From Deinococcales bacterium (lineage in GTDB: Bacteria; Deinococcota; Deinococci; Deinococcales; JAAFIG01), in NCBI GenBank assembly GCA_013298595.1, contig JAAFIG010000010.1:62001-126000 (forward strand): DNA of 64,000 bases, written 5' to 3'. Positions 1-64,000 of the stretch are shown here, in pieces. The translations under genes and the position numbers were made by a program. The notes beneath the pieces were generated by a model. The model saw only the letters and a list, made by a program, of their open reading frames with translations. It searched no databases and was not told the DNA's origin. Each line of letters begins with the position of its first letter. Position 1 is the first letter of the stretch.

Positions 1-102
1 GATGCTGGCAGAGTGCACCTGAAATTACAAATTAAAAGTGATCCAAATTATGTTAAAGATTGGGCTGTACTCGATATTTGCCAAATTGATTTGTGCAAAT
101 AA
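1..102 (+). CDS. C-terminal end of an unidentified protein
   Basis: Frame 1 is open from the window edge to a TAA at 100-102 and encodes 33 residues ending DICQIDLCK. The codons look like those of neighbouring genes and the stop is followed at once by the pilT promoter region. The fragment is too short to assign a family. It reads like the last beta-strands of a secreted or carbohydrate-binding protein, but that is only an impression. Confidence 0.5.
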   Translation, partial: DAGRVHLKLQIKSDPNYVKDWAVLDICQIDLCK

Positions 103-127
103 ACCACACAACCACCCATTTTTGGCG

Positions 128-133
128 TAAACT
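128..133 (+). promoter_or_regulatory. -10 box of a leaderless pilT transcript
   Basis: TAAACT lies exactly 6 nt before the pilT ATG and no Shine-Dalgarno sequence is present. The same TAnnnT-to-start arrangement recurs at about twenty genes of this window, so transcription probably begins at or next to the start codon. Confidence 0.65.
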
Positions 134-139
134 AATGCC

Positions 140-1327
140 ATGACTCAGCCAGCTCAGGAACTGAATATTGTTGATATTCTCAAGTACGCTGTTGAACGCG
201 ATGCCTCGGACATCATCATGACAGCGGGTTTACCACCTCAGTACAAAATTCATGGTGAATGGGGCAATGGCGAACATACCAACCCTTTAACTGGTCTCGA
301 GACGCGTAAATTGATGTACTCAACTATGAATGAAAAGCAGCAACGGGTTTTTGAAGAAAAACGCGATTTCGATTTTTCGTTCTCTTCCCAAGGTATTGGT
401 GGGCGTTTCCGTGTCAATATCTTTATGCAGCGCGGTACGGTGGGTGGTGTGATGCGGTTAATTCCGACCAAAACCCGTCCGCTTGAAGAAATTGGTTTAC
501 CCAAAGATATCCTGATTCAAGTCTCGAGTTTGCCACGTGGTTTGGTATTAGTAACTGGTCCAACAGGTTCAGGTAAAAGTACCACTTTGGCTGCCATGAT
601 CGACTGGATTAATACCAATAAGAAAAAACATATTGTGACCATCGAAGACCCTGTTGAATTTACTCATTCACATAAAAGCTGCATTATCAATCAGCGCGAA
701 ATCGGACCAGATACCCAAGATTTCGAGATGGCGTTACGAGCTGTACTGCGTCAAGCGCCTGATGTGATTCTGGTCGGAGAAATGCGCGACTTTGAAACCA
801 TTCGCAGCGCTGTCACCGCCGCTGAAACTGGGCACTTGGTGATGGGGACATTGCACACCAACAGCGCCCCAGAAGCCATTGACCGTATTGTGGACGTTTT
901 CCCAGAAGAACAACAAGAACAAATTCGCGTACAACTTGCCAATAACCTGAGCGCAATTATTACGCAGCAAATGTTACCAAAAATCAGTGGTGATGGACGC
1001 GTAGTTGCTTATGAAATTATGATTGCCACGCCTGCTGTGCGCGCCTTAATCCGCGAAGGTAAATCGTATCAATTGGTCAGTGTGATCCAAACCAACGCTT
1101 CACTTGGCATGATTACCATGGATGCTTGCCTTGCCGACATGTACAAAAAGAAAATCATTACTTTTGAACTCGGCGAAGCTCGTTCGGTAGATCCTAAAGA
1201 ATTTACACGCTTAGCCCGCCTTGGCGAAGGTCTTCCAGGGCAACCAGGGCAAGCTCAACGCCCACAACCAGGGCAACCAGCCCAACCACAAACACCACAA
1301 CCCGCCACAGGTTTTGGCAGACGCTAA
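140..1327 (+). CDS. pilT: Twitching motility retraction ATPase PilT
   Basis: PilT is the hexameric cytoplasmic ATPase that depolymerises type IV pili and so powers twitching and DNA uptake. The 395 residues show an N-terminal PAS-like PilT domain (about 1-100), a Walker A loop GPTGSGKST near residue 140, the Asp box, a Walker B ILVGEMRD near 210 and the His box GTLHTNSA near 236. The tail after about residue 365 is a Gln/Pro-rich low-complexity stretch that goes beyond the usual PilT length. The start follows a TAAACT box by 6 nt; an ATG at 135 is out of frame. No other pilus gene is adjacent, so the gene stands alone. Confidence 0.93.
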   Translation: MTQPAQELNIVDILKYAVERDASDIIMTAGLPPQYKIHGEWGNGEHTNPLTGLETRKLMYSTMNEKQQRVFEEKRDFDFSFSSQGIGGRFRVNIFMQRGTVGGVMRLIPTKTRPLEEIGLPKDILIQVSSLPRGLVLVTGPTGSGKSTTLAAMIDWINTNKKKHIVTIEDPVEFTHSHKSCIINQREIGPDTQDFEMALRAVLRQAPDVILVGEMRDFETIRSAVTAAETGHLVMGTLHTNSAPEAIDRIVDVFPEEQQEQIRVQLANNLSAIITQQMLPKISGDGRVVAYEIMIATPAVRALIREGKSYQLVSVIQTNASLGMITMDACLADMYKKKIITFELGEARSVDPKEFTRLARLGEGLPGQPGQAQRPQPGQPAQPQTPQPATGFGRR

Positions 1328-1395
1328 ACTATAAAATGCAACGGCAGGGCTATACTGCTCTGCCGTTTCTCATTGAAAAACGATAAGTTAACATC

Positions 1396-2580
1396 ATGAT
1401 TCACGCGCCCGAAGCCCCTGTATTCAAGGCGCTGCTCCTGATCTCGAGTTTATTACTGATTGGCATTGGCATCATTGCCAGACACCTCGAGCCACGAATA
1501 GCAACTCGTTGGCATTGGGGTATTCGGATTGGCGCGGTCATTCTGATTACCTCGAGTTTAGTTGATCTTGGTTTTACAGCTTGGCGTGCCCTACTCGAGA
1601 TCAACCCGTACTTGTATGGTGCGTATTTAACCAACAGCCGTCATGGACAATGGGTGATGGTTCGGGTGGTGTCGGCTGTTGTGCTGTGGTGGTTATCGGT
1701 CAAACCTCGAGCTGAACTCAACCGCTTACCGAATGCTAATAAAATAGATATTGGTTTACATAGTCTTGCCAGCATTGCCTTGGGATTGAGTATTTCTATG
1801 ACCACACATAGTGGTGCCAGCAACCAAGTTTTACCAATTTTTGGCGATCTGATGCACTTATTTGCCATGTACTTATGGATCAGTGGTGTAGCACTCTTGG
1901 CAATTCATCGTTTTAGTCCAAAAGATGGCATTGAAAAAGCCAAACTGATCTCGAGTGTCGCTGCTTGGAGTGTTGCAGCATTGACACTGACTGGGGTTTA
2001 CCAAAGTCTGATTAAACTCTGGTCGCCAGCTTTACTGGTCGAAACACAGTACGGCGCAACCCTGAGTATTAAACTTTTTTTATATGCCCTGGTGCTTGGT
2101 TTTGCAGCCATGAACCGCTGGTACTGGATGCCACAACTCGAGAAACGCCAAAACCTCTTTGTACGCTTCCAAGCTGCTACTCGCATCGAACTAGCTTTAC
2201 TTTGCACTGTCTTACTGGCAACAGCTACCTTAGGTAGCACAGCCCCACCAGAACGTGATGTCCGTCTGATTCAACCCATCGAAGTCGAAGAAAAACAAAA
2301 TATTTGGTTACTCAAAGCCAAAGGCATTACCCCAGCCATTGGTGGGTTACGTTTAACATTTCAAATTATCCCACAACCAGGCTATAAACTCGAGCCAGAC
2401 GCACGCCTTGACCTGAATTTAATTATGCCAGCCGATGGTATGAGTCTGCGCCAAAACCCAACCCGTAAAGCTGATGGCACGTACTACTTTGAGACTCGAC
2501 TTGGCATGCCTGGACAATGGAAGCTATTGATTAAAATACCCGGAGCAAAATGGGAAATACCATTTGAAGTGACAGATTAA
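1396..2580 (+). CDS. CopD-domain membrane protein with C-terminal YtkA-like domain
   Basis: The first 285 residues hold about eight transmembrane helices. They include the CopD signature region DLMHLFAMYLWISG near residue 155, in which conserved His and Trp sit at a membrane boundary as in copper-resistance CopD/PcoD. Residues 290-394 form a soluble beta-rich domain resembling the YtkA-like fold (ending MPGQWKLLIKIPGAKWEI), likely on the outer face. CopC/CopD-type proteins handle copper across the membrane, but no copC is adjacent and the copper role is inferred. The gene starts 6 nt after a TAAGTT box (1384-1389) and is followed closely by mqnC on the same strand. Confidence 0.75.
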   Translation: MIHAPEAPVFKALLLISSLLLIGIGIIARHLEPRIATRWHWGIRIGAVILITSSLVDLGFTAWRALLEINPYLYGAYLTNSRHGQWVMVRVVSAVVLWWLSVKPRAELNRLPNANKIDIGLHSLASIALGLSISMTTHSGASNQVLPIFGDLMHLFAMYLWISGVALLAIHRFSPKDGIEKAKLISSVAAWSVAALTLTGVYQSLIKLWSPALLVETQYGATLSIKLFLYALVLGFAAMNRWYWMPQLEKRQNLFVRFQAATRIELALLCTVLLATATLGSTAPPERDVRLIQPIEVEEKQNIWLLKAKGITPAIGGLRLTFQIIPQPGYKLEPDARLDLNLIMPADGMSLRQNPTRKADGTYYFETRLGMPGQWKLLIKIPGAKWEIPFEVTD

Positions 2581-2621
2581 AACGGTACATCTGATTCCCT
2601 CAAAGCGCCTAAACTACAAGC

Positions 2622-6625: not shown

Positions 6626-7081
6626 ATGTGTCACAATAATACCGTGAAAAAGAATCGGAATATCGTTTCCATACTTGTACCTGCACTGATTGCACTGATC
6701 AGTTTTTTTGTGCAGCAGTACAACACCCGTAACACCCCAATAACCAATAACAACCCCAGCACCTCGAGCAATCCTTTTGTGGTACGCAACCAACAAATTC
6801 AGGATCAAACAGGCAAGATTGTTTTCACAGGCGATATCAACCTCGAGCCTGTGCTGGCACGCATTGCTCGAGGCGAACGCGATTCGCACCCAAATGATGG
6901 CAGTGTGCACAGCAACCGCGAAGGCAAATTACCCCGCCAATCAGATCGAAATTATTATCACGAGTACGTGGTTCGCACCCCTAATTTACGCAATGTCGGA
7001 CCCCAACGCCTAATTCTGGGAAAGCAAAACGAGGTTTTCTACACCCCCGATCATTACAAAACATTTCTCAAACTGAGGTAA
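6626..7081 (+). CDS. Membrane-anchored or exported guanyl-type ribonuclease (barnase/RNase Sa family)
   Basis: The C-terminal 75 residues match the microbial ribonuclease fold. They carry the general base Glu in YYHEYVV, the Arg of GPQRLILG and the catalytic His of YTPDHYKTF, in the order and spacing of RNase Sa. Residues 14-32 form one hydrophobic helix after VKKNRN, so the enzyme is exported or membrane-anchored. A low-complexity Asn/Thr/Ser linker follows. ATG 6626 is preceded by TATGGT (6615-6620) with a 5-nt gap; GTG 6644 is an alternative. The inhibitor gene follows after 3 nt, the arrangement needed to protect the cytoplasm from the enzyme before export. Confidence 0.82.
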   Translation: MCHNNTVKKNRNIVSILVPALIALISFFVQQYNTRNTPITNNNPSTSSNPFVVRNQQIQDQTGKIVFTGDINLEPVLARIARGERDSHPNDGSVHSNREGKLPRQSDRNYYHEYVVRTPNLRNVGPQRLILGKQNEVFYTPDHYKTFLKLR

Positions 7082-7084
7082 ACC

Positions 7085-7474
7085 ATGACCCTATTACAAC
7101 AATTACAAAATCAAAACGGTGGCATCATCAAAACCAACTCAGTCAACATCACTCAACTCGAGGCAGCTGGATACAGCTTACACCTGATAGATCGTGCACC
7201 CGTTTTTAACAAAGAAACGCTATTGCACGCCATCTACCAAGCAGGAGCATTCCCTGCCTACTTTGGTTTTAATTGGGATGCTCTCGAGGATTGTTTGACC
7301 GACTGCTCATGGATGACCAAAAGCCTAGGCATTGTGTTTATTTTGAGCAACATTGCATTACTCGAAACTCGAGAAGCCAACACACTAGCCACCTTCCTCG
7401 AAATTATTGAAGTGGTCAGCAAAAAACGTCACGCACAAAAACTCGAGCCACTGTACTTCATTATTGCTGAATAG
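7085..7474 (+). CDS. Barstar-type ribonuclease inhibitor
   Basis: The 129-residue protein carries the barstar core: a loop after LHLIDRAPVFNKETLLHAI, the motif FGFNWDALEDCLTD with the acidic helix that fills the RNase active site, and a C-terminal strand LEPLYFIIAE. Barstar binds barnase-like RNases one-to-one in the cytoplasm. Its start is 3 nt after the RNase stop, so it is the cognate inhibitor. The N-terminal 25 residues (LQQLQNQNGGI) extend beyond classical barstar (about 90 residues). Confidence 0.88.
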   Translation: MTLLQQLQNQNGGIIKTNSVNITQLEAAGYSLHLIDRAPVFNKETLLHAIYQAGAFPAYFGFNWDALEDCLTDCSWMTKSLGIVFILSNIALLETREANTLATFLEIIEVVSKKRHAQKLEPLYFIIAE

Positions 7475-7601
7475 AATGCACATCAATGCTTTGCTCGAGC
7501 ACCCATTTGCGCCGCTGACCAATGTTTAAGTCCATAAACCATCATACATGAGGTGAAAGCTCGAGTGGTAAGCACCAAATTATCCAGTATTTTCAAGTAA
7601 A

Positions 7602-10600
7602 TTAGTACATCGAAAATTCAACCTGTTGAGTCTCCACATTCCAAACGCGAATACCACGTGATGACGCAATTGCTAACCACGGATTATTCGGATGCCAACT
7701 GAGATCATTTGCTGCACCTGAGATCTCAAATTTTGTACTTAAATCGGCAGTCCGAAGGATCCTTGTGGTGATACCTGCATTAAAAATTTGTGTTTCAATC
7801 ACAGCAATGTTTTGCTGATCCATACTCCACTCGATGGATTTATACTTAACTTGAGCACTAGCACATCGCGCATTATTTTGATTTGTGATATTAATAATAC
7901 AAAAGGTACCATAGTAGTTATCCTGTGTTAAGCCAAAAGCCAACGTTTGCGAATCCGCAGCCCACGAAAAATCAAGAATAACTTCGTTTGAGTTGCCCTT
8001 ATTATAAATAACCTTGTTCTCTAGTAAGTCGTACACTTCTAATTGTTTTGTATTGACAGTAACATAAGCAACTTTATGCCCATTATCGCTCCAAGCTACT
8101 TTCGTAGCTGGTTGATTAGAAATTCTTCTTAGGATTTGCCCAGAGTTTGCATCACGTACCACAGTAAAATCCGTAGCATCTGATGTCACAATTTGTTGAC
8201 CATCAGGACTCCAATCAAATACCAGCCCAAAATTGATTTCTCGAGTTGAGCCACTGACCACATTCCAAATAGCAGCATTACCAGCCCATAACTGAGTATT
8301 ATCAGGATTCCAATTCAGCATGACCTGAGATCCAACATCTAAAGAGGTTAGTTCTTGCTGAGTACCCGCATCAAAAACCCATGTTTTTTCACCACTAGCA
8401 GCTAGTTTTTGACCATTAGGACTCCAAATAACTTGGTTATAAATTCTCGGTTGCACACTAATACTAATTTCATCAAAAATTGTGGGATCATCCCGTAAAC
8501 TGGCACGAACTGTCACAGCAGTTGGGGTTGTTGGGGCGACAAATTTTTGTACACCATCACCCTGGGGGATAAGAGAACCTGTACCTGTTAGTGTCCAATC
8601 AAGAGCAGCAACAGCTTTATCATGCGACGCAAATGCTTGTAAATTAATGGATTTCCCTTGCTGCAAAACAATATCTTTGGGAGTAATCACAACAAATTTA
8701 TTAGCGGGATCAAATTTCTCTGCAACAATAGCCCATATCTCATCTTTGGTTAAACCAATGTCAAAAACACAATTACGAAAAATTTCTGGTGTAATAATTT
8801 TTGCCGTCTTACAAGCCTTCTCTGCTAAAGCACGATCCTCAGCAGACAAGGCTGTAATACCAAACATTGAATAGTATTTTCGATCTCGAGGAAAACTTAG
8901 GTCATTAAAATTAGTGTTACTCTCGCTATTCTCATAATCAAATAAGGATTCTGCATCAGAAATTCGCCAAGCTTCAAGAAAATTATTCAACTTAGAAAAA
9001 TCAATAGGTGAACGAATTAATGTGCCATTTCGTAATCGAAAATCATCTAAACCATTACCATTAGCATCACCTAATAAGCCCCTAATCTGCCCTCGAGTTG
9101 AAGGTGGAATCATTACTTCTAACGTGTCAATAGCCGTTCCATAATTTCCCAACTTAATAGCGTAACCTGTCGAAGTTGTCAGACTAACAGTTGAACCGTT
9201 TAAACTAAGTTTTATACCAGTACCAACATCATAAAGACCATTAACTTGAACACTCTGCCCATTGACCTTGAAAAACCATTGACCAGACTTAAAATAAATT
9301 CCAATTCGGTACCCATTTAAGCGCATAGCAATGGCTGTAGTAGCAGACCAAACTTGGGAATCTTGTACATCCACAAAACGGGCTTGCAATTCAAAACCAT
9401 CGGATAATAAAGACTTAGCTAGAATAAATTCACCAGCTTTTTGGGCTTCAAAATGCGTACCATCAAACGAGTACATATGTGGGTCGCTTTGCACACCACC
9501 GATAGCTGGTCGGTTTGTTTCTTCGGGCGTTAGCACAGGTTTAGGTGTTTCTTTGCATTTTAAGTCCACAGGCACTTCGGCATACACAGTCGGAACAGCA
9601 TCGGTACTGAGCAGTTCAGTAGAAGTTGAATAATCCCCAGGACCATTCGGGCAATCCAATAACATATCCACGAAATCTCTTCCATTGGCTGGGACTTCCC
9701 GATCTTCAACAATGACATTGCCAAAAGGTGATTTGGACTTTGCAGTGTATTTCAGAGATTGAGCAGATTTATTCTTAATGGTACTGGTGGCAAGCCGTTT
9801 TGCGTACACAAACTTACCAGTCTCATCGGTGTAACCTTCAATTGTTTCTTTGATAGGGCTAGAAATAACATCTAAATACGCATTTAGAGTTCTGCATTGC
9901 ACATTCACCGCTACGCTAGTACTCTCGAGAATAGCCACTCCATTATCATCGGTTGCTCCTGTACTATACACAATATTAATATATCTTGTGAAATTACCTG
10001 AATTCGAGCAAAAGTACTGAACACTTGTGTTATTCGAGGGGTAATTATTTGAGTCTTTATTGGCTTGGGTGACTGTTAAACTATCTTCGCTTGTGGGTAT
10101 AGTAAATCTGTAATCCCGAATTAAACGGCTTTCAGGTGTGGGTGGCACAATCACATTTTGTAAACGCAAAGCGGCACTGGCATTATTATTCCCAGCATTG
10201 GCATTACCAAGTGGGTTGTTAGGGTTTAATAAGCTCGAGTCAATGATGTTCTCGGTGACATAGTATCGTTTGAACTCGAGAGTGGAATCTACATCTCCAG
10301 TGTTTTTAATTGATAGGATTTCAGTGTTTGTGGTTTGTCCGACTGTACCACTCAAAGAAATACTCGAGGGAACAGATATTGCAGGTGTGACAGAAGTTAC
10401 CCGAATCGTAAATTTATCAGGTGGAACTGCACTAGTATCTAAACGATTCCATTGTTGAGTACTTGATACAACAGCAGTGTATTCCATACCATCTTTAACG
10501 TTGGTTACGAAAGCATCACCAGGATTATTATTGCATTTATTGCGTAATGGTGGACTTTGATACCAAGTATCTTTTAAGGCTGCGGAATCTGTAATAACTT

Positions 10601-12965
10601 GGAGTTTATAAATTCTTCTTTTTTTGTTTGGATTAAGAAATCGAATTGTAGCGGCTCGAGTTTGCAAAGAGTAAATGGGTTCGTCTTTCCATAAGTTTGC
10701 TACACCAAAATTTGTTGAAACATCAATATCTGCTTTACGAGAAGCATAATCATCAATTATTGTGTTATTAATTTCTATAGTACAAGGTGCATTAAACATG
10801 CCGTATTGCGGGTTCTTTTCAAAAGCCTGATTCTTAGCCCAGTAATAATAAGCTCGTTCTAAACCATTTGGGAATCCAGCTGCGATTAAACCAGTATTTG
10901 CATTATTGATTGGTTGAGTTAAACCTGTTTTGAACACATTTTTTAAGTAAGGAAGCCCGACACCAAGCCAATTACCAGCGAAAACCCAGAAGTCTTGTGC
11001 TCTATAGGCTTGGTCTGTTTCTCTTGAAGATGCGTTAAGCAGAATATCCACTTGATGTAGTGAACGATCAGTTGTTCTTTGCATGCTTGTACGACTTGAT
11101 TTTTCAGCAGCAACGGCTGTACCTTCCATTATCCAAGCCCTTTTTGGGCGTAAAACATTATCTGGTTCTACCCATCTACGTTGTACAGCATGGGTTAATT
11201 CATGTTTTATGACATCGTCTATATTTAAGTTGGCTGTAATTGTCCAACTAGTGTTTACACAAATAACCACTTGACCATCATCGGCATTATAGTAAGCAAG
11301 TGTATCACCAGTACACTGTTCTGAACCATAAAAAACTAATTCGTGATTTGCTCGTAAAATCGGTTTAATTGTCATTTCAAAATCAAAAATAATATTTTTT
11401 AGTTTTCTAATTAAGATATTTTGATAGGTATTTGAAACTGCTTCAGGACAATCTAAACCTGTGGTATTGCAACCAAAAACGATGTCGTTTTCATTGAGAT
11501 ATATCGGTATACCTTGAAAATTTTCTACTTGCTGAAGAGATAACCGATTTAAAGTCGCTATTGATGTTTGTTTTCTTCTGACAAGCACAAAAATACCATT
11601 TGGATTAGCAAGTAGTGTTGTAGCACGAGAGATATAACCTGCTACTAAATCTTCTCTTCGTGTTGTCCAAACACTTTTATCGAAATGTGAACTAGTTAAG
11701 TATGTAGGAACAAATGCAGCAACTCTAAGTGTTTTATCAGACACAAAAGACGCAGGAATAGGGAAATCAAAGTTTAGAAGGACATCCGTAATACTGACCA
11801 CCTTTTCAGAAGTAGTTCCAATTTTTAAATAGGGTCCTATCGCTTCAAATTCGGCGGGTAAAGCTAGTTCTAGCTTTGCAGGATCAATAGATTCAACATA
11901 GACTTCCACAGGTTTCTCGATTGAATTTTGTGGAGCGACAATATTGACTCCCCAAGGTGTTGAAAAAGAACTATTTGGAGAAAGAATACCAACAGCTCGA
12001 GTACCAAATGGTAATTGCCCACCACCAAGCACATCACTGTTTAAATGACTCGAGACTTTAGCAATCGTTGTACTTTGATTCAAAGTGACTTTACCACCAG
12101 CCACAACACTACCCTCGAGATTACTACTCTGGTTAATAGTGATATTACTCGTTGCCCAAAGTGCCATCTTCCCACTCGAGCTTTGATTCAAAGTCATGTT
12201 CTGCCCAGCAATCACTGCCAGTTCACCACTCAAGCTTTGCATTCCATTATTATTACTAGTCAAGTTCTTCGCTGTGATAAGACTACTCAGTCCTGTACTC
12301 TCGAGTTTTCCATTCAAGGTTAAATCTTCATCTGTAATAATTCTCGAGTTGTTTAATACTGTGGTTTGGTTGAACCCAGCTCCTTTAGCAATGATTCTTG
12401 TATTCTCGAGGGTTAAACCTTTATTACTATTGATGGTCTCTTGAACTATTAGTGTGGCGTTTTTAATGGTAGCAATGGTGTTTAAGTTGAGGCTACCTTT
12501 GACCAGTACAATTTTATTATCGAATCGGTTGGTAATATCACTGCTCGAGTTCAGGGTTAAACTACCTTGAATCGTACTGGTAGGAATTGCGGTGTACTTG
12601 GTTTTTAAAGCAGTGATATCTGGTTTTGGAACAGTAACAATTGCACTAATAAATTTGGGTTTACCATTCAAACAAAAACCCATACCACTATTATCAGCAC
12701 AACTTGCAGCATTGGTACTCGAGACAACTCCACCATTTAAAACTATATTTCTCGAGTTGAGGATTAAACCAGTATTAGCATGGACACTCGAGTTGTTTTG
12801 CAATGTAAAACCTTGGTTACTTTGGAAGGTTAGCCCAGCGATGATACCGTGAAGCATGATATCTCGAGGGGTGGTTAAAGCTTGGGTTGATACTTGTTGT
12901 TCTTGTATTGCTGGAGCTTGAGGACAAGCGGTGAGGGCGGATGCCAGTAATGCGGCTGTGAACAT
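7602..12965 (-). CDS. Giant surface lipoprotein with metalloprotease-like, VWD and beta-propeller regions
   Basis: The 1787 residues start with a lipoprotein signal peptide ending LTAC (cleavage before Cys14). Residues 20-310 are Asn/Ser/Thr-rich repeated short strands (LTLNGKLES, MTLNQSSS) suggesting a parallel beta-helix. Residues 310-480 hold the GQLPFGT module shared with the next gene. Near residue 587 is HELTHAVQRRW, a gluzincin-type HExxH site. Near 1158 QSDPHMYSFDG opens a von Willebrand type D-like domain, followed by DANGNGLDD (calcium-loop-like). Residues 1500-1787 form about seven SPxGxxL blades of a beta-propeller. ATG 12965 is chosen because AAGGAGG lies just upstream; the longer frame to 13031 lacks support. 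Adhesion or surface processing is inferred. Confidence 0.8.
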   Translation of the reverse strand: MFTAALLASALTACPQAPAIQEQQVSTQALTTPRDIMLHGIIAGLTFQSNQGFTLQNNSSVHANTGLILNSRNIVLNGGVVSSTNAASCADNSGMGFCLNGKPKFISAIVTVPKPDITALKTKYTAIPTSTIQGSLTLNSSSDITNRFDNKIVLVKGSLNLNTIATIKNATLIVQETINSNKGLTLENTRIIAKGAGFNQTTVLNNSRIITDEDLTLNGKLESTGLSSLITAKNLTSNNNGMQSLSGELAVIAGQNMTLNQSSSGKMALWATSNITINQSSNLEGSVVAGGKVTLNQSTTIAKVSSHLNSDVLGGGQLPFGTRAVGILSPNSSFSTPWGVNIVAPQNSIEKPVEVYVESIDPAKLELALPAEFEAIGPYLKIGTTSEKVVSITDVLLNFDFPIPASFVSDKTLRVAAFVPTYLTSSHFDKSVWTTRREDLVAGYISRATTLLANPNGIFVLVRRKQTSIATLNRLSLQQVENFQGIPIYLNENDIVFGCNTTGLDCPEAVSNTYQNILIRKLKNIIFDFEMTIKPILRANHELVFYGSEQCTGDTLAYYNADDGQVVICVNTSWTITANLNIDDVIKHELTHAVQRRWVEPDNVLRPKRAWIMEGTAVAAEKSSRTSMQRTTDRSLHQVDILLNASSRETDQAYRAQDFWVFAGNWLGVGLPYLKNVFKTGLTQPINNANTGLIAAGFPNGLERAYYYWAKNQAFEKNPQYGMFNAPCTIEINNTIIDDYASRKADIDVSTNFGVANLWKDEPIYSLQTRAATIRFLNPNKKRRIYKLQVITDSAALKDTWYQSPPLRNKCNNNPGDAFVTNVKDGMEYTAVVSSTQQWNRLDTSAVPPDKFTIRVTSVTPAISVPSSISLSGTVGQTTNTEILSIKNTGDVDSTLEFKRYYVTENIIDSSLLNPNNPLGNANAGNNNASAALRLQNVIVPPTPESRLIRDYRFTIPTSEDSLTVTQANKDSNNYPSNNTSVQYFCSNSGNFTRYINIVYSTGATDDNGVAILESTSVAVNVQCRTLNAYLDVISSPIKETIEGYTDETGKFVYAKRLATSTIKNKSAQSLKYTAKSKSPFGNVIVEDREVPANGRDFVDMLLDCPNGPGDYSTSTELLSTDAVPTVYAEVPVDLKCKETPKPVLTPEETNRPAIGGVQSDPHMYSFDGTHFEAQKAGEFILAKSLLSDGFELQARFVDVQDSQVWSATTAIAMRLNGYRIGIYFKSGQWFFKVNGQSVQVNGLYDVGTGIKLSLNGSTVSLTTSTGYAIKLGNYGTAIDTLEVMIPPSTRGQIRGLLGDANGNGLDDFRLRNGTLIRSPIDFSKLNNFLEAWRISDAESLFDYENSESNTNFNDLSFPRDRKYYSMFGITALSAEDRALAEKACKTAKIITPEIFRNCVFDIGLTKDEIWAIVAEKFDPANKFVVITPKDIVLQQGKSINLQAFASHDKAVAALDWTLTGTGSLIPQGDGVQKFVAPTTPTAVTVRASLRDDPTIFDEISISVQPRIYNQVIWSPNGQKLAASGEKTWVFDAGTQQELTSLDVGSQVMLNWNPDNTQLWAGNAAIWNVVSGSTREINFGLVFDWSPDGQQIVTSDATDFTVVRDANSGQILRRISNQPATKVAWSDNGHKVAYVTVNTKQLEVYDLLENKVIYNKGNSNEVILDFSWAADSQTLAFGLTQDNYYGTFCIINITNQNNARCASAQVKYKSIEWSMDQQNIAVIETQIFNAGITTRILRTADLSTKFEISGAANDLSWHPNNPWLAIASSRGIRVWNVETQQVEFSMY

Positions 12966-13050
12966 AAAACCTCCTTTCTTTCTTCGGGAAGTGGCTTTAA
13001 GAATTGTAATTGGAGTTAGACGAAAAAACATAAGGAGAAGTCTACCCTTG

Positions 13051-13112
13051 AGCTAGAAAAACCCTTGTTATCTTTGACCACTCGAGATTTCAAAACGCAA
13101 TTCACGCTGTGC
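13051..13112. repeat. Promoter block shared by two lipoprotein genes, copy 1
   Basis: These 62 bp are nearly identical to 14321-14382. Each copy ends 7 bp before a TAnnnT box on the minus strand (TAGACT at 13039-13044 here), so the block covers the -35 region and the upstream 60 bp of the promoter. It contains one CTCGAG. The conservation of the upstream sequence suggests a shared activator site or a duplicated regulatory unit. Confidence 0.7.
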
Positions 13113-13137
13113 GAATTAGCTATTAGTTCAAATTATC

Positions 13138-14241
13138 TTATCGTCTTATGAATCCAAATACGACTGCTTTGTCTTGTTCAGAAATCAAAAAGGTATTACT
13201 GAAAACAGCATATTTACCACTTTGATCAAAACGTCCCGAAATTAGCCAGATTGGTGTTGTAGAAGTTGTATCTGAAAAAGTCCAACTTGGATGCAATGCA
13301 ATCGGAATTACCGTCTCAATCGTTTCACCGTCAGGTAATGGAACACTAAAAAGAAAAGTATTTTTCCCATCAAGTGTAGTAGTATCTTGTATTGCGCCAA
13401 CACGAAATAATGTACCAACTAATGGTCGTGAATATGGCGGCAAATTCGCGGGATTTTCTACTTTCACAAAAACAGGAATGTTTTCTGTCAAAGAGTTAGG
13501 TGGAGTCGTAATTTGTACACCTAACGAACTAATCCAAGGAGTATTTGGTTTTAGAATCCCTTCTTCTCGAGTGCCAAATGGTAATTGTTCAGAGTTCAAA
13601 GGGGTTTGTACATTTTTTTTAATAAACCCAAAAACAAGTGCACCGTCCGCTTCTGAAACGAGGAAATCTATTCCAAAGCTTAAAGTTTTTCCATTTTCGA
13701 TAAAACGACTGGGAAATGACTTCAGCCAAATGGGTTGATCTGATGAGTTCTCAGTAGTTTCGCTAGAAATCAACCATTTCGGAAAAAGTATAACAGGAGT
13801 AACTGAATCAGATGTTTCCCCTTCAGGAAGTGGGATATTGAAAGTAAAGTTTTTGCTATAATCAAGAGCTGCCGTTTCTTGAGAAGCACCTACCCGATAA
13901 AGTGACCCTACAAATTTTTCAGCTAGTGGTGGTAAATGAACTGGATTCTCGACTTTTACAAAAACAGGAATGTTTTCTTTTAATGCGTTAACTGGGGTTG
14001 AAATTTGTACACCCAATGAGCTAATCCAAGGAGTATTTGGTTTTAAAATTCCTTCTTCTCGAGTACCAAATGGTAATTGTCCATCTTTCAGCACAGCATT
14101 ACTTAAACGGCTCGAGGTTTTACTTATGGTTTGTGCTTGGTTCAGTGTTGCTTTGCCACTTGCCACAGCACTCCCCTCGAGACTCGAGAAGTGCCAACAA
14201 GTCATAAGTACGGATGCCAGCCAAGCAGCGGCTTTAAGCAT
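13138..14241 (-). CDS. Surface protein with two tandem GQLPFGT modules, paralogue of the giant lipoprotein
   Basis: The 367 residues begin with a hydrophobic signal (MLKAAAWLASVLMTC). Its lipobox is weak because Thr precedes Cys. A short LEGSAVASGKATLNQ segment matches the beta-helix end of the neighbouring 1787-residue protein. Two copies of a roughly 150-residue module follow, at about 54-205 and 217-367. Each starts GQLPFGTREEGILKPNTPW and closes with a VVFGFI-like strand. The giant protein has one such module. The gene therefore looks like a partial duplicate of the giant gene in which the module then doubled. SD is weak (AGCAGG). The function is unknown and the location is presumably the cell surface. 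Confidence 0.65.
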   Translation of the reverse strand: MLKAAAWLASVLMTCWHFSSLEGSAVASGKATLNQAQTISKTSSRLSNAVLKDGQLPFGTREEGILKPNTPWISSLGVQISTPVNALKENIPVFVKVENPVHLPPLAEKFVGSLYRVGASQETAALDYSKNFTFNIPLPEGETSDSVTPVILFPKWLISSETTENSSDQPIWLKSFPSRFIENGKTLSFGIDFLVSEADGALVFGFIKKNVQTPLNSEQLPFGTREEGILKPNTPWISSLGVQITTPPNSLTENIPVFVKVENPANLPPYSRPLVGTLFRVGAIQDTTTLDGKNTFLFSVPLPDGETIETVIPIALHPSWTFSDTTSTTPIWLISGRFDQSGKYAVFSNTFLISEQDKAVVFGFIRR

Positions 14242-14320
14242 AAAACCTGCTTTGTATACTTAGTTGGTTACTTATAGCTGGCAGAATGAACCACAAAATC
14301 ATGTTAAAAGTGTACTCTAT

Positions 14321-14382
14321 AGTTGAGAAAACCCTTATTGTTTTTGACCACTCGAGATATCAAAACACAATTCACGCTGTGC
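14321..14382. repeat. Promoter block shared by two lipoprotein genes, copy 2
   Basis: Matches 13051-13112 with few mismatches. Here the minus-strand box TACACT (14309-14314) lies at the same 7-bp distance, which places the transcription start about 60 nt upstream of the 14241 start codon. It marks the upstream edge of the duplicated lipoprotein unit. Confidence 0.65.
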
Positions 14383-14457
14383 CAGAAAAATCAAAGCATA
14401 TACTAAGGTTACGAATTCGCAAGCTCATCTAATTTAGTTTTGACTTAAAGCCAGACT

Positions 14458-15483
14458 TCACGCAGCTGCATCAGCTGGGCGTTTTAGTGCCAGTTGCCCA
14501 CAAGCTGCCCCTGCATCACGCCCACGTGAGCGTCTGACCGATACTGGTACCCCAAGTTTCTCGAGGGTGTCGTAGAACTCTTGGATTCGTTGTTCACTCG
14601 AGGATGCAAAACCAGATCCTGCCCATGCGTTCATGGGAATTAAGTTGACATGGGCAATCAAGCCGCGCAGTTGCTCGGCGAGCAATTCAGCTTGCCAAAG
14701 GTGATCGTTGACTCCTGCTAACATACTGTACTCGAAGGTGACACGGCGTTTGCTACGACGTTGGTATTCTCTGGCGCTCTCGAGAATATCTTTGATGCTG
14801 TGGGCATGAGCAGTGGGAATAATTTTTTTACGGGTTTCTTCGTCGGGTGCATGTAAAGAAATGGCAAGTTTAACAGTCACATCTTCGGAAGCAAGTTGAA
14901 TAATTTGTTTAGGTAAACCAACCGTAGATAATGTAATACGGCGTTGGCTCATGCCCAAGCCATCGGCGTGCAATAAAATCCGAGCGGCATTTAAAGTGTT
15001 CTGATAATTCAGTAGTGGTTCGCCCATACCCATGAACACAAGGTTACGAATAGTACTTGGTTGCCAACCCTGATCTCTGGCAGCATATAAAATTTGTTCA
15101 ACCACTTCACCAGCGGTTAAGTTGCGTCCAAAACCCATGCGCCCAGTAGCACAAAACGAGCATCCTGCTGGGCAGCCCACCATTGTTGAAACACAGATGG
15201 TCACTCGGTCTTGGTACGGCATTAAAACAGCTTCCATTTGCCGACCATCTAAAAGTGTGTACAGATACTTGGTGCTACCATCGGTAGAAGGAAATTTTTC
15301 GACTTTAGAAAAAGCACTTAAAGCATATGTTTGCTCGAGTTCAGCGCGAATATTTTGTGGCAAGTTACTCATATCTGCAAAATGAGCTACCCCTTGCACA
15401 AACACCCACTCAAGCAATTGTTTACGCCGATATCCCTCGAGAGGGTATGCGTCTGGGTGTAAATCAAGGAGGTAAGTTTTCAT
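14458..15483 (-). CDS. rlmN: Dual-specificity 23S rRNA A2503 / tRNA A37 C2-methyltransferase RlmN
   Basis: RlmN is a radical SAM enzyme that methylates C2 of adenosine 2503 in 23S rRNA. The 341 residues show the cluster motif CPAGCSFC near 102-109, the GxGEP-type GMGEPLLNY and a C-terminal catalytic Cys in AACGQLA. A longer reading to 15582 runs into the upstream gene. ATG 15483 was chosen because it begins [10 protein letters not shown] and sits 4 nt after the stop of the upstream small gene, indicating an operon. Confidence 0.92.
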
Positions 15484-15487
15484 AAGA

Positions 15488-15976
15488 TTAGTACTTTTGT
15501 TGCAATTGTTGTGGTTCGTCACCATCGGTAAAAACCAGCAGAATACGGCGATCATCGGGGTAACGAACAAATCGTAAAACATTGGCTTTTGGGAAATCGG
15601 TTTTTAATTCCTCGAGTAATACTTGGGCTGCTTTGGTTTCTTCTGGGGTTAACGGGAGGCTCTCGGCTTGTAATTGTGGCGTTGGCGTACTGGGTTTATG
15701 GATTGGTGCGCCACTGCCACTTGGGTCGGCTAATGAACCATCATAGGTTTCGCCTTCATTAGCAGCGTGTGGCAAATTGCTTTTGAAATCCTCGAGATCC
15801 GCAGCAAAAGCACCATTTTCAATCACAGCACCTGCAATTAAACTGCGCCCAATCGCAAGTTCTTCGGATAAACCAGGAAAACTGCTCGAGCCAGCAGGAA
15901 TTGCTTGATCCTCGAGTTCGACTTTTTGGCTGGTACGGACTTCGCTTGGGTAGGTGTGACCATTAACAACTATCAT
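15488..15976 (-). CDS. Hypothetical protein upstream of rlmN
   Basis: The 162 residues contain a disordered Pro/Ser/Gly-rich middle (about 40-105) and a compact C-terminal part (about 110-155, with [17 protein letters not shown] and [19 protein letters not shown]). There is no signal peptide or membrane helix and I recognise no family. It is leaderless: TAAACT (15983-15988, minus strand) lies 6 nt before the ATG. It ends 4 nt before rlmN, so the two are probably co-transcribed. Confidence 0.55.
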
Positions 15977-16003
15977 ATGCTTAGTTTAACACTGGAAACT
16001 GCT

Positions 16004-16528
16004 TTATGCTTTGTGTTGCAATAAAATACGTAATTCCTCGAGTGTTCCAGACAGGGTCGCAATTTGCAAAACGTCGCGTTGCAACAACATACCTTGCTCT
16101 GTTGGGTACGCATGCCAGCCTACAAAACCGCCAATACCCCGTAAATACTCGAGGGCAATGCTCAGATTTGGCAGGACGATTTTGACCATTTTCTGGCTAC
16201 TTTGAGTGGCTTCGTCTAAGTGTTGCATGGCAATTAATGCTAAGGAATGAACTGATTCGTGCATACTGCGGTGAATCGGTTGGGCAAAAAATTGGTAATT
16301 CCCGCGCCGAACTTGCAAAATTGCCAGTGCTGCTTGGCGTTGCTCGAGTCCTGGGTGATTGGCATGGGTAATAAAATGATTTTCGATATGTAACTCGAGT
16401 TGCCCTATGCACAAGATACCAATTGCACCATTATCACTGAGCTTTTCAACTAAACTGGCAGCGCCACCAGCACTTTCTAAACGACCAAAGATAGGAATGT
16501 CTAATATATTGGGTGGTTCTAAAATCAT
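16004..16528 (-). CDS. DUF4388-like protein
   Basis: The first 90 residues have the pattern of the DUF4388 (PATAN-like) domain: FGRLESAGGAASLVEKL, then GAIGILCIGQLELHIENHFITHA, strands that typically report a small sensory or scaffolding domain in Deinococcota and myxobacteria. The remainder is helical with no known motif. ATG 16528 is preferred over the ATG at 16540 because GGAG lies 6 nt upstream. The neighbours give no functional hint. Confidence 0.55.
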   Translation of the reverse strand: MILEPPNILDIPIFGRLESAGGAASLVEKLSDNGAIGILCIGQLELHIENHFITHANHPGLEQRQAALAILQVRRGNYQFFAQPIHRSMHESVHSLALIAMQHLDEATQSSQKMVKIVLPNLSIALEYLRGIGGFVGWHAYPTEQGMLLQRDVLQIATLSGTLEELRILLQHKA

Positions 16529-16630
16529 GTAAAACTCCATGCCAGTGAGACTTAATCCTTATTACAAAAACATCATAAATCACTTTTGTTACTCAAAATT
16601 GTATTTTTCCGACATTAACTTTGTAGGCTT

Positions 16631-17485
16631 TCAAACAATGTTTTTGGCTTCTTCGGCAAAACTTGCCAGTACCGCAGCACCTAAAACCAAAACAGCACCT
16701 AAAATTGTTTCGATGCGCGGTGTTTCAGCAATTAGCCACCAAGCCAGAAACGCTGCAAACACAGGTTCAAGAGTACTGATTAAACTGGCTCGAGAAGCCC
16801 CAATTCGGGCAATCGAGGCGTACAGCATGGGTAATGCCAGCAGTGTAGAAATTATTGCCATGGCTGCTACCACACCCCAAGCTGATAAAGAATCTGGGAT
16901 TCGGTTACTACCAAAAACAATGTTCCAAATAGCAAAACCAATTGCACTGCCAAGTGCCCCATGGGCTGTAAATGCCATAGGTGGAATATGGCGTTGTGTT
17001 TCTGTTGCTACCAAGTACGCGCCATACCCAATGCCTGCCAATGCCCCACAAATCACCCCAATCGGATTGGCATCTCGAGCACTGGGTAAACCAATAATCA
17101 CCAGTAAACCAGCACTCGCAAAGGCAGTTGCCAGTAACTGCTTGGATGTTGGGCGTTTACCTAAAAAAGCACGAATCACAATCACCGCAATGGGTGATAA
17201 ATAAACCAACAAAGCAGCTGTAGCAGCTGATATTCGCTCGAGCGAGGCAAAATAAAGTGCAGTAAAAACAAAGTAGGCAAGTCCAAAAGCAATCATCCGC
17301 AAACGATCTATCCAGCGAAAACCTTTGCCGTAACCAACAACAAAAAGTACTAATGCTACCAAACCAAAACGCCAAACCAATAAACTACTCGAGGCAAAAC
17401 CGAGTTGTTGGGCAAATTTCCCCCAAATTCCAAGGGTTGAAAAGCACAATGCACTGGTTGCTGCAAGTAAAACGCCAAGCCACAT
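16631..17485 (-). CDS. EamA (DMT superfamily) permease
   Basis: The 284 residues form ten predicted membrane helices arranged as two EamA repeats, with the typical inner-repeat motifs ALYFASLERISAATAALLVYLSPI and the C-terminal ISTLEPVFAAFLAWWLI. Drug/metabolite transporters of this type export amino acids or other metabolites, but the substrate is not predictable. ATG 17485 is chosen over 17521 because TAGTAT (17491-17496, minus strand) sits 5 nt before it. Confidence 0.8.
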   Translation of the reverse strand: MWLGVLLAATSALCFSTLGIWGKFAQQLGFASSSLLVWRFGLVALVLFVVGYGKGFRWIDRLRMIAFGLAYFVFTALYFASLERISAATAALLVYLSPIAVIVIRAFLGKRPTSKQLLATAFASAGLLVIIGLPSARDANPIGVICGALAGIGYGAYLVATETQRHIPPMAFTAHGALGSAIGFAIWNIVFGSNRIPDSLSAWGVVAAMAIISTLLALPMLYASIARIGASRASLISTLEPVFAAFLAWWLIAETPRIETILGAVLVLGAAVLASFAEEAKNIV

Positions 17486-17612
17486 ACTGCATACTAACGT
17501 GTTTACCGTGATGCAATTCATATGCTTATTGGCTTATTAAAGGATTAAGGTTTTTTGCCCGAATCTGTTTTTCTGGTTGAGCAAATAAAACAATTTTCAA
17601 CTCGAGAAAAAT

Positions 17613-18014
17613 CTAGGGTTGAAGTTCAGCAATATTATGTTCGCAATCTGCCAAAGTAGAACATTGACAAAGCATGCCTAATTGCAAAATTTGTTTCATT
17701 TCTTGCGCTCGAGCTATCAGCGCTTCGATTTCAAGCAATTTGGTGGTCGCCAGTTGTTGCCAACGAGTACTCGGTCGAGTTTCGAGAGGAAACTCATAGA
17801 TCAGGGTTTTAATTTCCTCGAGTTGAAATCCGGCTCGTTGAGCAATTTGAATATACTTGATTCGCCCAACAACACTGGGCAAATACCTGCGTTGACCACT
17901 TTGGCGTTGAGGGGCAACCAGCAAACCCAGTTGTTCATAATAACGCAGGGTTGCGGTGCTAACTTTGGCTTGAGCAGCAACTTGACCAATGCTGAGTGTA
18001 TTTGATGGATTCAT
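17613..18014 (-). CDS. MerR-family transcriptional activator with Cys-rich tail
   Basis: The 133 residues start with a winged helix (IGQVAAQAKVSTATLRYYEQLGLL), then the MerR dimerisation helix and a C-terminal CQC...C cluster (CQCSTLADC) near residues 114-122, the position where metal-sensing MerR proteins bind their ion. ATG 18014 has AGAGG just upstream; the longer reading from 18071 runs through its own operator and is unlikely. It is divergent from the 106-residue gene and overlooks the operator at 18026-18045, so it probably activates that gene on metal or oxidant binding. The effector is inferred. Confidence 0.85.
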   Translation of the reverse strand: MNPSNTLSIGQVAAQAKVSTATLRYYEQLGLLVAPQRQSGQRRYLPSVVGRIKYIQIAQRAGFQLEEIKTLIYEFPLETRPSTRWQQLATTKLLEIEALIARAQEMKQILQLGMLCQCSTLADCEHNIAELQP

Positions 18015-18022
18015 GGTTCCTC

Positions 18023-18053
18023 TTGACTTCAAGTCAACTTGAAGTTCTAGGCT
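18023..18053 (+). promoter_or_regulatory. MerR-type promoter with 19-bp spacer and palindromic operator
   Basis: TTGACT (18023-18028) and TAGGCT (18048-18053) are separated by 19 bp, the over-long spacer that makes MerR-regulated promoters inactive until the regulator twists the DNA. Between them lies a perfect inverted repeat, ACTTCAAGT-CA-ACTTGAAGT (18026-18045). It faces the 106-residue gene. Confidence 0.85.
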
Positions 18054-18059
18054 TGGCAC

Positions 18060-18078
18060 TCGAGAGAACAACTCTCGA
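18060..18078 (+). other. Hairpin in the leader of the MerR target gene
   Basis: TCGAGAG-AACAA-CTCTCGA is a 7-bp perfect stem just upstream of the AAGGAG ribosome binding site (18081-18086). It contains one CTCGAG. It could modulate translation or mRNA stability. Confidence 0.4.
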
Positions 18079-18092
18079 ATAAGGAGTTTATT

Positions 18093-18413
18093 ATGCCATT
18101 AAACCCAGTCATTGCTTGTCAGCTTAACGCCCACACACCAGAACAACGAGCGCGTCACCGCGAATTGTTACAGCACATATTTGCTCATAAACTCAAATTA
18201 CACGAACAAACGCATGGTTACATTTTCACCTTCAAAGCTGAATTGTCCTTAGCTTTGCAAATTACTGAGTACATCATGCTTGAGCATCTCTGTTGCCCTT
18301 TCTTGGCATTAACATTGCATCTCGAGCCAGACTTGGGTTTACAACTCGAGATCAAAGGGTCAGTCGAGGCAAAACCTCTGATTTGGTCGAATCTTCAAGC
18401 TGCAATGCAGTAA
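18093..18413 (+). CDS. Small CC-motif protein under MerR control
   Basis: The 106 residues contain the sequence EHLCCPFLALTLHLEP near 66-80. Small proteins with an E-x-L/F-CCPF motif often sit beside MerR-type regulators, but I know of no proven function. The adjacent cysteines suggest metal or thiol chemistry. The gene has a strong SD (AAGGAG, 7 nt spacing) and the MerR promoter directly upstream, so it is the obvious target of the divergent regulator. Confidence 0.7.
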   Translation: MPLNPVIACQLNAHTPEQRARHRELLQHIFAHKLKLHEQTHGYIFTFKAELSLALQITEYIMLEHLCCPFLALTLHLEPDLGLQLEIKGSVEAKPLIWSNLQAAMQ

Positions 18414-18481
18414 AGGCTTAGCTTGAACAAAAAATTGTCATCTTAAATCAGCTTTTTATGCAGCCTAAAACGCCGACAGCA

Positions 18482-18506
18482 GTATATCTCTCGAGTTAAG
18501 ATATAC
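18482..18506. promoter_or_regulatory. Palindrome overlapping a -10 box
   Basis: GTATATCT (18482-18489) and AGATATAC (18499-18506) flank CTCGAGTTA. The right arm overlaps the TAAGAT box (18497-18502) that lies 7 nt before the next ATG, so a bound repressor would block that promoter. Confidence 0.45.
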
Positions 18507-18509
18507 CTT

Positions 18510-19076
18510 ATGAAACCTTGGATTTACTACATCATTGGCGCTGCAATCCTGATTGCAGGAGCAGTTTTCGCTCGAGGTTTTTCGCAAGTCAGTGTTGGTA
18601 CTGTGCAACGCAACCCAACCGATGCGGTGCGTTTCCCTGAAGTGCAAGGCTCGAATCTCGAGGGGCGCAAATTTAATCTACCAACTGATTTTGCCGGTAA
18701 ACTCAACCTTGTAGCAATTGCTTTTTTTCAGAGCCACCAAACCCTTGTAGACTCTTGGTCGCCCGCTGTGACACGATTACTAGGCAAATACAACACCTTA
18801 AAATTCTATGAATTACCAACGCTTTCTAAGGAAAATAGTATCGCTCGAGCATTTATTGATGGTGGCATGCGCGCAGGTATTGCCAGCAAAGCCACTCGAG
18901 AAATTACGATTACGTTGTACTTAGATCGGGCTGCGTTTATTAAAGCCATTGGTGAAACATCCGATCAAACCCTAATAACACTATTGGTCAATCAAAAAGG
19001 CGATATTTTATGGCGTGGACGTGGTGCGTATAGCCAAGCTCAAGAAGAATTGCTCGAGAGAATACTCAAACAATAA
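18510..19076 (+). CDS. Membrane-anchored thioredoxin-fold protein lacking CxxC
   Basis: One N-terminal membrane helix (about residues 4-22) is followed by a domain with the order of a thioredoxin-like fold: NLVAIAFFQSHQTLVDSW, then ITITLYLD and TLITLLVNQKGDILWRGRG. The usual CxxC position reads FQSHQ, so no dithiol chemistry is expected. The GMRAGI segment before a strand resembles the ATP10/TlpA-like group. An assembly or chaperone role outside the membrane is plausible. Leaderless start (TAAGAT, 7 nt). Confidence 0.6.
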   Translation: MKPWIYYIIGAAILIAGAVFARGFSQVSVGTVQRNPTDAVRFPEVQGSNLEGRKFNLPTDFAGKLNLVAIAFFQSHQTLVDSWSPAVTRLLGKYNTLKFYELPTLSKENSIARAFIDGGMRAGIASKATREITITLYLDRAAFIKAIGETSDQTLITLLVNQKGDILWRGRGAYSQAQEELLERILKQ

Positions 19077-19077
19077 C

Positions 19078-19461
19078 TTATGGCTCGAGTGTTTTAGCAC
19101 TGCTTAGCAATACTCGGTATTCATTTTTATACGTCCAAAGCGTCACCAGATACGTTGCAAAGACAATAATGCCGATGGGGATACCACCCGCTTGTGGGTT
19201 TGCTAAATGAATCAACAAAATATTGAGTGTGATTGGCGCTAGTACCAATAGCGTTAGTGGTACAAAACGGTTTAATAACAAAGCCACGCCTGCAACCATA
19301 ATGATCACACCAACCAGCGTCCACATATAGCCTGTTTGGTCTAAAGCATCAATCAGTGGTACCCGCCAGTTGCTGGCGGGAATTGTGAAGTGCATGATGC
19401 CACCTGTCAGCATCAGTAACCCCAGCATTGTTTGTATGCCTGCTCGAGTGGTGTTTTTCAT
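19078..19461 (-). CDS. DoxX-family membrane protein (second of tandem pair)
   Basis: The 127 residues form four membrane helices with the DoxX-like pattern RFVPLTLLVLAPITLNILLIHL. It is a clear paralogue of the gene immediately upstream (2-nt gap): the segment LAPITLNIL is conserved in both. DoxX proteins are linked to oxidative stress or membrane quinone chemistry, but the reaction here is unknown. It is the distal gene of a TetR-controlled operon. Confidence 0.75.
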   Translation of the reverse strand: MKNTTRAGIQTMLGLLMLTGGIMHFTIPASNWRVPLIDALDQTGYMWTLVGVIIMVAGVALLLNRFVPLTLLVLAPITLNILLIHLANPQAGGIPIGIIVFATYLVTLWTYKNEYRVLLSSAKTLEP

Positions 19462-19463
19462 GG

Positions 19464-19889
19464 TTAGTAGCTGGTTTCTAAGATGGGGGTTTTATCAGCA
19501 AGGCTCGAGTTGGGTAAGAAAAGGCTCGAGTAATACCGACGGTATAACCATGCCAACACCAGTTGCAATGCAACTATAAAAACTGCGATTCCAATACCAT
19601 CTGGGGTTGCATGAGCAAGATGAAAAAACAAGATATTCAGGGTAATCGGAGCCAGTAACACCAGTGCCAGTGGGATAAACCGACCTGCTAAAATTGCGAT
19701 GCCAGCCAGAAGTTCAATAATACCAATCATTTGCCATAAATAACCTGTATTGACCATTGCTGTAATAAATTGGCTGTTGTTCATCGCGCCTTCTTTAACA
19801 TTGGTGATATGGGTAACAAAGCCGAGCACCATCAGTAAACCCAGCAGTATCCGAGCAGCCCACCAAACAATTTTTGTTGTTAATGTCAT
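19464..19889 (-). CDS. DoxX-family membrane protein (first of tandem pair)
   Basis: The 141 residues show four helices and the DoxX core RFIPLALVLLAPITLNILFFHLAH. GAGG lies upstream of the ATG. The TetR operator at 19907-19930 covers the likely -10 (TAGAAT, minus strand) of this gene, so the pair is repressed by the regulator encoded just upstream. Tandem duplication produced the two copies, which now differ at most positions. Confidence 0.78.
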   Translation of the reverse strand: MTLTTKIVWWAARILLGLLMVLGFVTHITNVKEGAMNNSQFITAMVNTGYLWQMIGIIELLAGIAILAGRFIPLALVLLAPITLNILFFHLAHATPDGIGIAVFIVALQLVLAWLYRRYYSSLFLPNSSLADKTPILETSY

Positions 19890-19906
19890 ATATTTTTCCT
19901 CAAACT

Positions 19907-62902: not shown

Positions 62903-63432
62903 GGGGTTGCTCCTTCGAGGGTTAGCTTGAAATAATTTTCCATATATGTATCTAGGTTCGCAGCTTGAAAAGTAATTTGAGGATCGGTATTTTCTTTTAC
63001 TATTTCAGCATAAAACTGATAAAAACCTTGTTGGGCGATCATAGAATTGTCCGAATTAGAATCAAAATAATAAAATGAGCCAAGTCCCGATGCACCATCA
63101 TTAGCATCATCTATTGGAATTATCTTAAAATTTTTTAACACCTTTGGATATTTTATACGGAAAATATAATCTGTATCTATTACTATTTCCTTGTAGCCCA
63201 TTTTAATTGCTTTTAGATTTAATACAACATCTTGGGTCGAAGCGATAATTTGATAACTCCATCCGTTATTATCACCATAAATGCCATTAGCAAACGTATA
63301 AAAATCTCTTAAATCTTCGGGCAACACAAAACCAAGTTCGTTCTCTAATTGAGAAATTTCAGTATTTTTTGCAGAAGGACGAATATCAAAGCCCCTGTAT
63401 GTAAGTTTTCTAATCGCTTCTAGCCATTGCAT
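62899..63432 (-). CDS. SMI1/KNR4 (SUKH) family protein
   Basis: The 177 residues have the SUKH signature: [22 protein letters not shown] near 25-50, then YYFDSNSDN and the C-terminal [11 protein letters not shown]. Many SUKH proteins are immunity factors for contact-dependent toxins. No toxin is adjacent; it is upstream of and coupled to the thiolase, an odd pairing. AT-rich codons and few CTCGAG motifs suggest acquisition. Confidence 0.8.
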
Positions 63433-63449
63433 TTTTGCCTTTAGTGATG

Positions 63450-63498
63450 GGTAGGCTTTGCCTACGGTTTTATGTACGATATGTGGGTAAAGCCTACC
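63450..63498. repeat. Inverted repeat next to the RAYT gene
   Basis: GGTAGGCTTT (63450) pairs with AAAGCCTACC (63489-63498); a second, nested palindrome GTAGGCTTTGCCTAC lies at 63451-63465. Two alternative hairpins are possible. REP elements associated with RAYT genes often look like this. Confidence 0.6.
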
Positions 63499-63752
63499 TA
63501 CTTTCTAATCTATTCAAACTCCTTTTTCCTTCTCGAGCCACCGCGCAGGATTACCTTCAATATAATCACGGCATCGCTCGAGTTCAGCATTATTACGAAC
63601 AATACGATCATAAAACCCGCGTTGCCAAAAACGTTTTTCAAATGGCATCCAATTGTGTTCACGCACCCCACGAATGTATTGATTGGTGGTGATGGATTTG
63701 AATGCACTAATCACATTACCCAACACAGGATTCATTGCCATATTATGTGTAG

Positions 63753-63773
63753 GGGCGACCCTTGTGGTCGCCC
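63753..63773. repeat. REP-like palindrome inside RAYT, GGGCGACC-CTTGT-GGTCGCCC
   Basis: 8-bp stem whose loop is the reverse complement of ACAAG, so it is an inverted member of the same class. It translates in the RAYT frame as RATTRVAP. Confidence 0.8.
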
Positions 63774-63869
63774 TGTGCGACACGAAATCGTTCAAAACAG
63801 TTGCATCAATATTGTTTTTCACGTCATTGAATACAGGCACGCTGATAATCGAATCGTTATTAGTCACGC

Positions 63870-63890
63870 GGGCGGGTACAAGACCCGCCC
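63870..63890. repeat. REP-like palindrome inside RAYT, GGGCGGGT-ACAAG-ACCCGCCC
   Basis: 8-bp stem followed by CCTAC-type flank; differs from the 61584 copy only by compensated G/C and A/T pairs. In the RAYT frame it reads GAGLVPAR. Confidence 0.8.
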
Positions 63891-64000
63891 CTACGGGGTT
63901 ATGGACAATTGATTTGTTATTAACGCCAACCACATTTTCATTATTTCCATTCAATACGATAATGCCGTGAACATGGTCTGGCATAATAATAAATGCGTCT

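Follow-up and report, generated by a model that had tools for sequence, protein, structure and literature searches.

The palindrome CTCGAG is iterated, as a unit of exactly six base pairs, through the whole genome of an uncultured member of the Deinococcales, in genes and gaps alike, at densities shared by related genera, and its copies are conserved between species and spaced apart from one another. The stretch analysed, called the window below, is 64 kb long and contains 388 copies where base composition predicts 12.3 (a 31.6-fold excess) and a site-masked Markov model predicts 7.0. The initial annotation had estimated about 50 copies against about 2 in the first 10 kb and had the excess run on to the end of the window; the count is 51 against 1.9, and every 4-kb bin holds between 8 and 38 copies. 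Its extension of the claim to the genome was also borne out, the count outside the window being far from normal: the assembly (G000, 4.58 Mb in 68 contigs) carries 27,159 copies, that is about 5.9 per kb or 5,900 per Mb and some thirty times over chance, while the reversed string GAGCTC occurs 15 times. In a 1.28-Mb sample of G000 the density was 5.86 per kb with a standard deviation of 0.97 across pieces of mostly 20 kb.

Specificity for CTCGAG was a test set beforehand, and when the hexamer palindromes of the window were counted CTCGAG was the sole strong outlier; the second, TTGCAA, reached 2.7-fold and no other palindrome showed the excess. The positions flanking the sites carry almost no information, which sets the extent of the unit. 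The poorest bin, 8001-12000, holds 8 copies where 17-38 are typical. Neither helical nor longer periodicity was seen in the placement of the copies, in which only the codon period of three stood out.

Other palindromes are strongly avoided in the window, including GGCC (2 copies against 162 expected) and CCGG (19 against 162). Fifteen of the 64 six-base palindromes are absent and most others are depleted. The avoidance is similar in G001, G003 and, GGCC excepted, G012, and suggests pressure, past or present, from many restriction enzymes.

Coordinates of the features discussed (strand given where assigned)
Feature	Location	Strand	Remarks
CTCGAG copies	window, 1..64000	.	388 sites, spaced 164 bp apart on average; all three frames as well as non-coding DNA
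Longest CTCGAG-free stretch of the window, about 1.3 kb	window, 10655..11994	.	within the 1809-aa ORF
1809-aa ORF	window, 7602-13031	(-)	von Willebrand type D domain and WD40-like beta-propeller; CTCGAG-poorest part of the window
AT-rich, CTCGAG-poor ORFs	L454:9507-10571; L460:17425-19822; L422:4796-5875; L413:15775-18303		G000
N6/N4 methyltransferase, then NotI-type nuclease	L125:8650-10496		G000; probable restriction-modification pair
C5 methyltransferase adjoining RlmKL-like methyltransferase gene	L124:9908-12246 (and L127)		G000, G001; order same in both species

Reading frames, codons and dipeptides

Coding and gap classes are approximate, as the gene calls are uncurated longest-ORF approximations. 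Within ORFs of the window 342 copies were found against 22.9±4.6 after shuffling of synonymous codons, a procedure that preserves both proteins and codon usage. Frames 0, 1 and 2 hold 172, 96 and 74 copies (11.8, 8.5 and 2.6 after shuffling), and a further 46 fall in the gaps between ORFs against 1.1 expected, an excess of about 40-fold. This agrees with the earlier statements that the word sits in all reading frames and in gaps and that codon preference cannot explain it. Coding and intergenic densities are 5.85 and 5.86 per kb, and the profile around ORF starts and stops is nearly flat; a role as a regulatory element was rejected on the latter ground.

An origin in codon preference or base composition would fit the predominance of frame 0 and accounts for the modest count in GC-rich Thermus, but it is refuted by the shuffle and the gaps, and we give it practically no credence. 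Outside Leu-Glu pairs the codons concerned are minor ones in G000, CTC serving for 8% of leucines and GAG for 18% of glutamates, so that 1.5% of Leu-Glu pairs should read CTC-GAG; 66% do. Slots in the other frames are also filled, [SPTA]R[VADEG] at 64% and xS[SR] at 37%.

Leu-Glu is the most over-represented of 399 dipeptides in G000 (ratio 2.32) and is also top-ranked in G001, G002, G003 and G012; the ratio is 1.05 in G004, a related genome that lacks the excess, and 0.84 in Thermus. G000 and G001 apart, the samples are small, with some 7,000-20,000 dipeptides. Because Leu-Glu leads in the CTCGAG-rich genomes, the word appears to influence the choice of amino acids besides that of synonymous codons, and CTCGAG is thus a short DNA word that measurably shapes protein sequence.

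Conservation and spacing of the sites

Two species of one genus, G000 and G001, were compared over 78 kb of alignment at 76% identity, in which 307 of 482 CTCGAG sites (64%) are conserved; the word ranks first of 321 hexamers, the median being 25%. Against G003 the figures are 48% for CTCGAG and 16% for other hexamers with four G or C, and against the element-free G004 they are 11% and 11.5%, with no excess conservation; both comparisons rest on small numbers. Unshared sites mostly differ at two or more positions, and one-mismatch states are scarce among diverged sites (18% versus 45%). An argument for conversion drawn from this shortage was dropped because codon analysis showed that lost sites drift to TTA-GAA, the preferred codons, a course that the unshared sites fit. 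Relative to codon expectation the decay products CTTGAG and CTCGAA are enriched 5.8-fold and 2.9-fold; lost sites are therefore not quickly removed.

Sites avoid one another below roughly 20-50 bp. In G000 the fraction of Leu-Glu pairs written as CTCGAG rises from 0.21 when the nearest other site lies within 12 bp to 0.78 at 80-100 bp. The same effect is seen in the other two frames and in G001, there more weakly for Leu-Glu, and pairs less than 18 bp apart have low counts in G001, G002, G003 and G012. Its reach is about 60 bp in G000 and about 20-30 bp in G001. Avoidance of hairpins was discarded as the cause, generic GC-rich inverted hexamers of equal hairpin potential being undepleted at 12-60 bp, and the effect points to interference or redundancy of neighbouring sites. 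Occupancy drops again beyond 300 bp, which probably reflects CTCGAG-poor, recently acquired stretches. Several AT-rich ORFs of G000 (28-37% GC; see the table), among them one for a glycosyltransferase and one for a UvrD-like helicase, have few or no copies and are probably recent, foreign acquisitions. No viral contig with the CTCGAG signature was evident among the 80 loci listed.

Related genomes and the search for a matching enzyme

The density recurs in relatives, as a comparison proposed by the initial annotation has now shown: four genomes from the family of the window have 5.9-7.7 copies per kb, and so have two congeneric genomes from a second family, four genera in all. Across G000-G003 and G012 the range is 5.9-6.5 per kb, despite a GC content of about 45 to 60% in the sampled stretches. 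Within the second family G008 is intermediate and G004 lacks the element. Meiothermus and Calidithermus have a weak form, 2.5-3 times over codon shuffling and about 9-11 times outside ORFs, and Thermus has no excess. The assignment to Deinococcota is therefore right as to the relatives, which are Deinococcales and Thermaceae, but too broad for the element, which is strong only in the two uncultured families. In an SdhA tree, which is that of a single gene with some open forks, the window's family stands apart from the second one and the latter groups with the Thermaceae; given this tree and the patchy densities, the element must have been gained or lost more than once. Among named genomes the nearest is the Deinococcales MAG JAAFJQ01 (92% SdhA identity), and G012 shares an identical SdhA with the 339R MAG. 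L001, very probably from the same genome as G001, was not counted as independent.

CTCGAG is the recognition sequence of the XhoI and PaeR7I restriction-modification systems. The XhoI nuclease (PF04555) and its methyltransferase are absent from G000-G003, G008, G012 and G016, and XhoI restriction-modification was rejected as the explanation. The nuclease occurs in three genomes with far fewer CTCGAG (0.7-1.0 per kb), G018, G041 and G042, and in pieces in G009. It adjoins a beta-type methyltransferase (L113) in G018 and a gamma-type one (L149) in G009, a linkage which suggests that both types are CTCGAG-specific. Neither type occurs in G000, G001 or G003; the gamma type is found in some genomes of the Meiothermus group, and many equally CTCGAG-rich genomes of that group are without it.

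In five Pfam families (PF00145, PF01555, PF07669, PF02384 and PF02086) no orthologous group of methyltransferases spans G000-G003 and G012, the main assemblies being of 91-94% completeness (58% for G016), so that any one of them may lack a gene. Each genome also has methyltransferases without an assigned specificity. The matching methyltransferase supposed by the initial annotation thus did not emerge from this search; such an enzyme may belong outside the five families, or specificity may have arisen by convergence. The only C5 methyltransferase of G000 above the cut-off, L081, was rejected as the cognate enzyme. It is missing from G002 and G003 and probably CCGG-specific, since its best plasmid relative (58%) adjoins an HpaII-type nuclease and CCGG is avoided in G000. 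L108 adjoins a NotI-type nuclease. No Vsr occurs in G000-G003, G012 or G016, and the mismatch-repair bias also supposed earlier thus finds no support in a Vsr-type form.

The likeness to HIP1 holds only in part. HIP1 (GCGATCGC in cyanobacteria) is likewise a palindrome in excess throughout the genome, within genes and outside them, but it is another word, of 8 rather than 6 bp, in another phylum; the window has no CGATCG, and a 50-kb stretch of a Trichormus plasmid contains 26 HIP1 copies against 0.26 expected and no CTCGAG. With the wider HIP class (Elhai 2015) CTCGAG shares the extreme genome-wide excess of one palindrome. It departs from the class in that the search yielded no putative methyltransferase for the word, in GC content (67%, where HIP words have at least 75% with one exception of 50%; PMC4390886) and in density, being at least three times denser than the roughly 1,000-2,000 per Mb of the class and above the 300-2,700 per Mb given for HIP1 (PMC4390886). 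The alternate HIPs, GGCGCC in Calothrix PCC 7103, GCsGC and rCCGGy, are short palindromes too and each the sole outlier of one genome, but they were seen in single genomes and go with cognate methyltransferases (PMC4390886), whereas CTCGAG spans genera and families. The initial annotation was not aware of an equivalent described from Deinococcota. In agreement, the open-licence literature, outside which most subscription papers lie, yielded no account of CTCGAG as an iterated palindrome and none of an element of this kind in Deinococcota.

Possible causes of the excess

Our leading explanation, tentatively held, is that selection maintains CTCGAG throughout the genome, at about one copy per 170 bp, as the scattered recognition site of a putative sequence-specific DNA-binding or DNA-processing factor. 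A site would be favoured where none is near and would be of little value, or obstructive, within about 20-50 bp of another. Most likely the reader would be a nucleoid-organising or a recombination or repair protein. That the sites persist through selection rather than conversion bias, and that they are read by a protein, we infer from the conservation, the slot occupancy, the Leu-Glu bias, the equal coding and intergenic densities, the similar density in genomes of differing GC content, the spacing and the probably foreign genes without the word. Conservation, occupancy and dipeptide bias could, however, also stem from strong biased repair or conversion, and the differing spacing range between genomes and the persistence of CTTGAG and CTCGAA speak against selection. 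A fuller version, in which the palindrome is independent of methylation and a DNA-binding system in uncultured Deinococcales branches favours one 6-bp site per about 170 bp with a minimum spacing, so doubling Leu-Glu in the proteome, is possible, but is put forward with more reserve.

It is less likely, though still to be reckoned with, that a solitary methyltransferase modifies CTCGAG and that the sites arise and persist through methylation-directed repair or some function dependent on methylation. In cyanobacteria an over-represented HIP word was always accompanied in its genome by a putative enzyme for methylating it (PMC4390886), and G000 has several methyltransferases without assigned specificity, e.g. 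L169 and L217; against this stand the missing orthologous enzyme, the absent XhoI-linked types and the probable CCGG specificity of L081. The repair model of Elhai (2015) moreover requires a GC dinucleotide (PMC4390886) not contained in CTCGAG, and the mark of an m5C hotspot is lacking, the excesses of CTTGAG and CTCGAA being about equal in number. We regard as unlikely a drive in which repair or recombination resolves mismatches towards a functionless CTCGAG. There is precedent in principle for a drive of this sort, as repair by Vsr raises CCWGG in E. coli, and high occupancy with an effect on amino acids demands a strong and general process. Apart from the absence of Vsr, the transition near-miss words are enriched over codon expectation rather than depleted, interference between neighbours is no obvious product of such a drive, and the odds are higher in Leu-Glu slots (66% against 1.5%) than in gaps (about 40-fold), where a uniform per-site drive predicts otherwise. 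An improbable reading is that of a word for DNA uptake or self-recognition, as in Neisseria and Pasteurellaceae. Known uptake words are also dispersed and conserved, and the AT-rich, probably foreign genes without CTCGAG would fit, but these words occur about once per kb, far below 6 per kb, we know of none that is a palindromic hexamer, and a minimum spacing would be unexpected. Chi sites, like uptake words, resemble CTCGAG as dispersed, over-represented and functional short words; both are, to our knowledge, non-palindromic, rarer and without a comparable reported minimum spacing.

The descriptions of HIP1 come from cyanobacteria, in which it occurs together with methyltransferases. CTCGAG constitutes an independent case in a second phylum, denser and with no recognisable cognate methyltransferase. 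As close relatives are without the element (Thermus, G004) or have it in a weaker form (the cultivable Meiothermus and Calidithermus), models of methylation, selection, repair and uptake become separable by experiment. The weak excess is present in the cultivable Calidithermus roseus and Meiothermus granaticius (L010, L015), which offer an experimental system.
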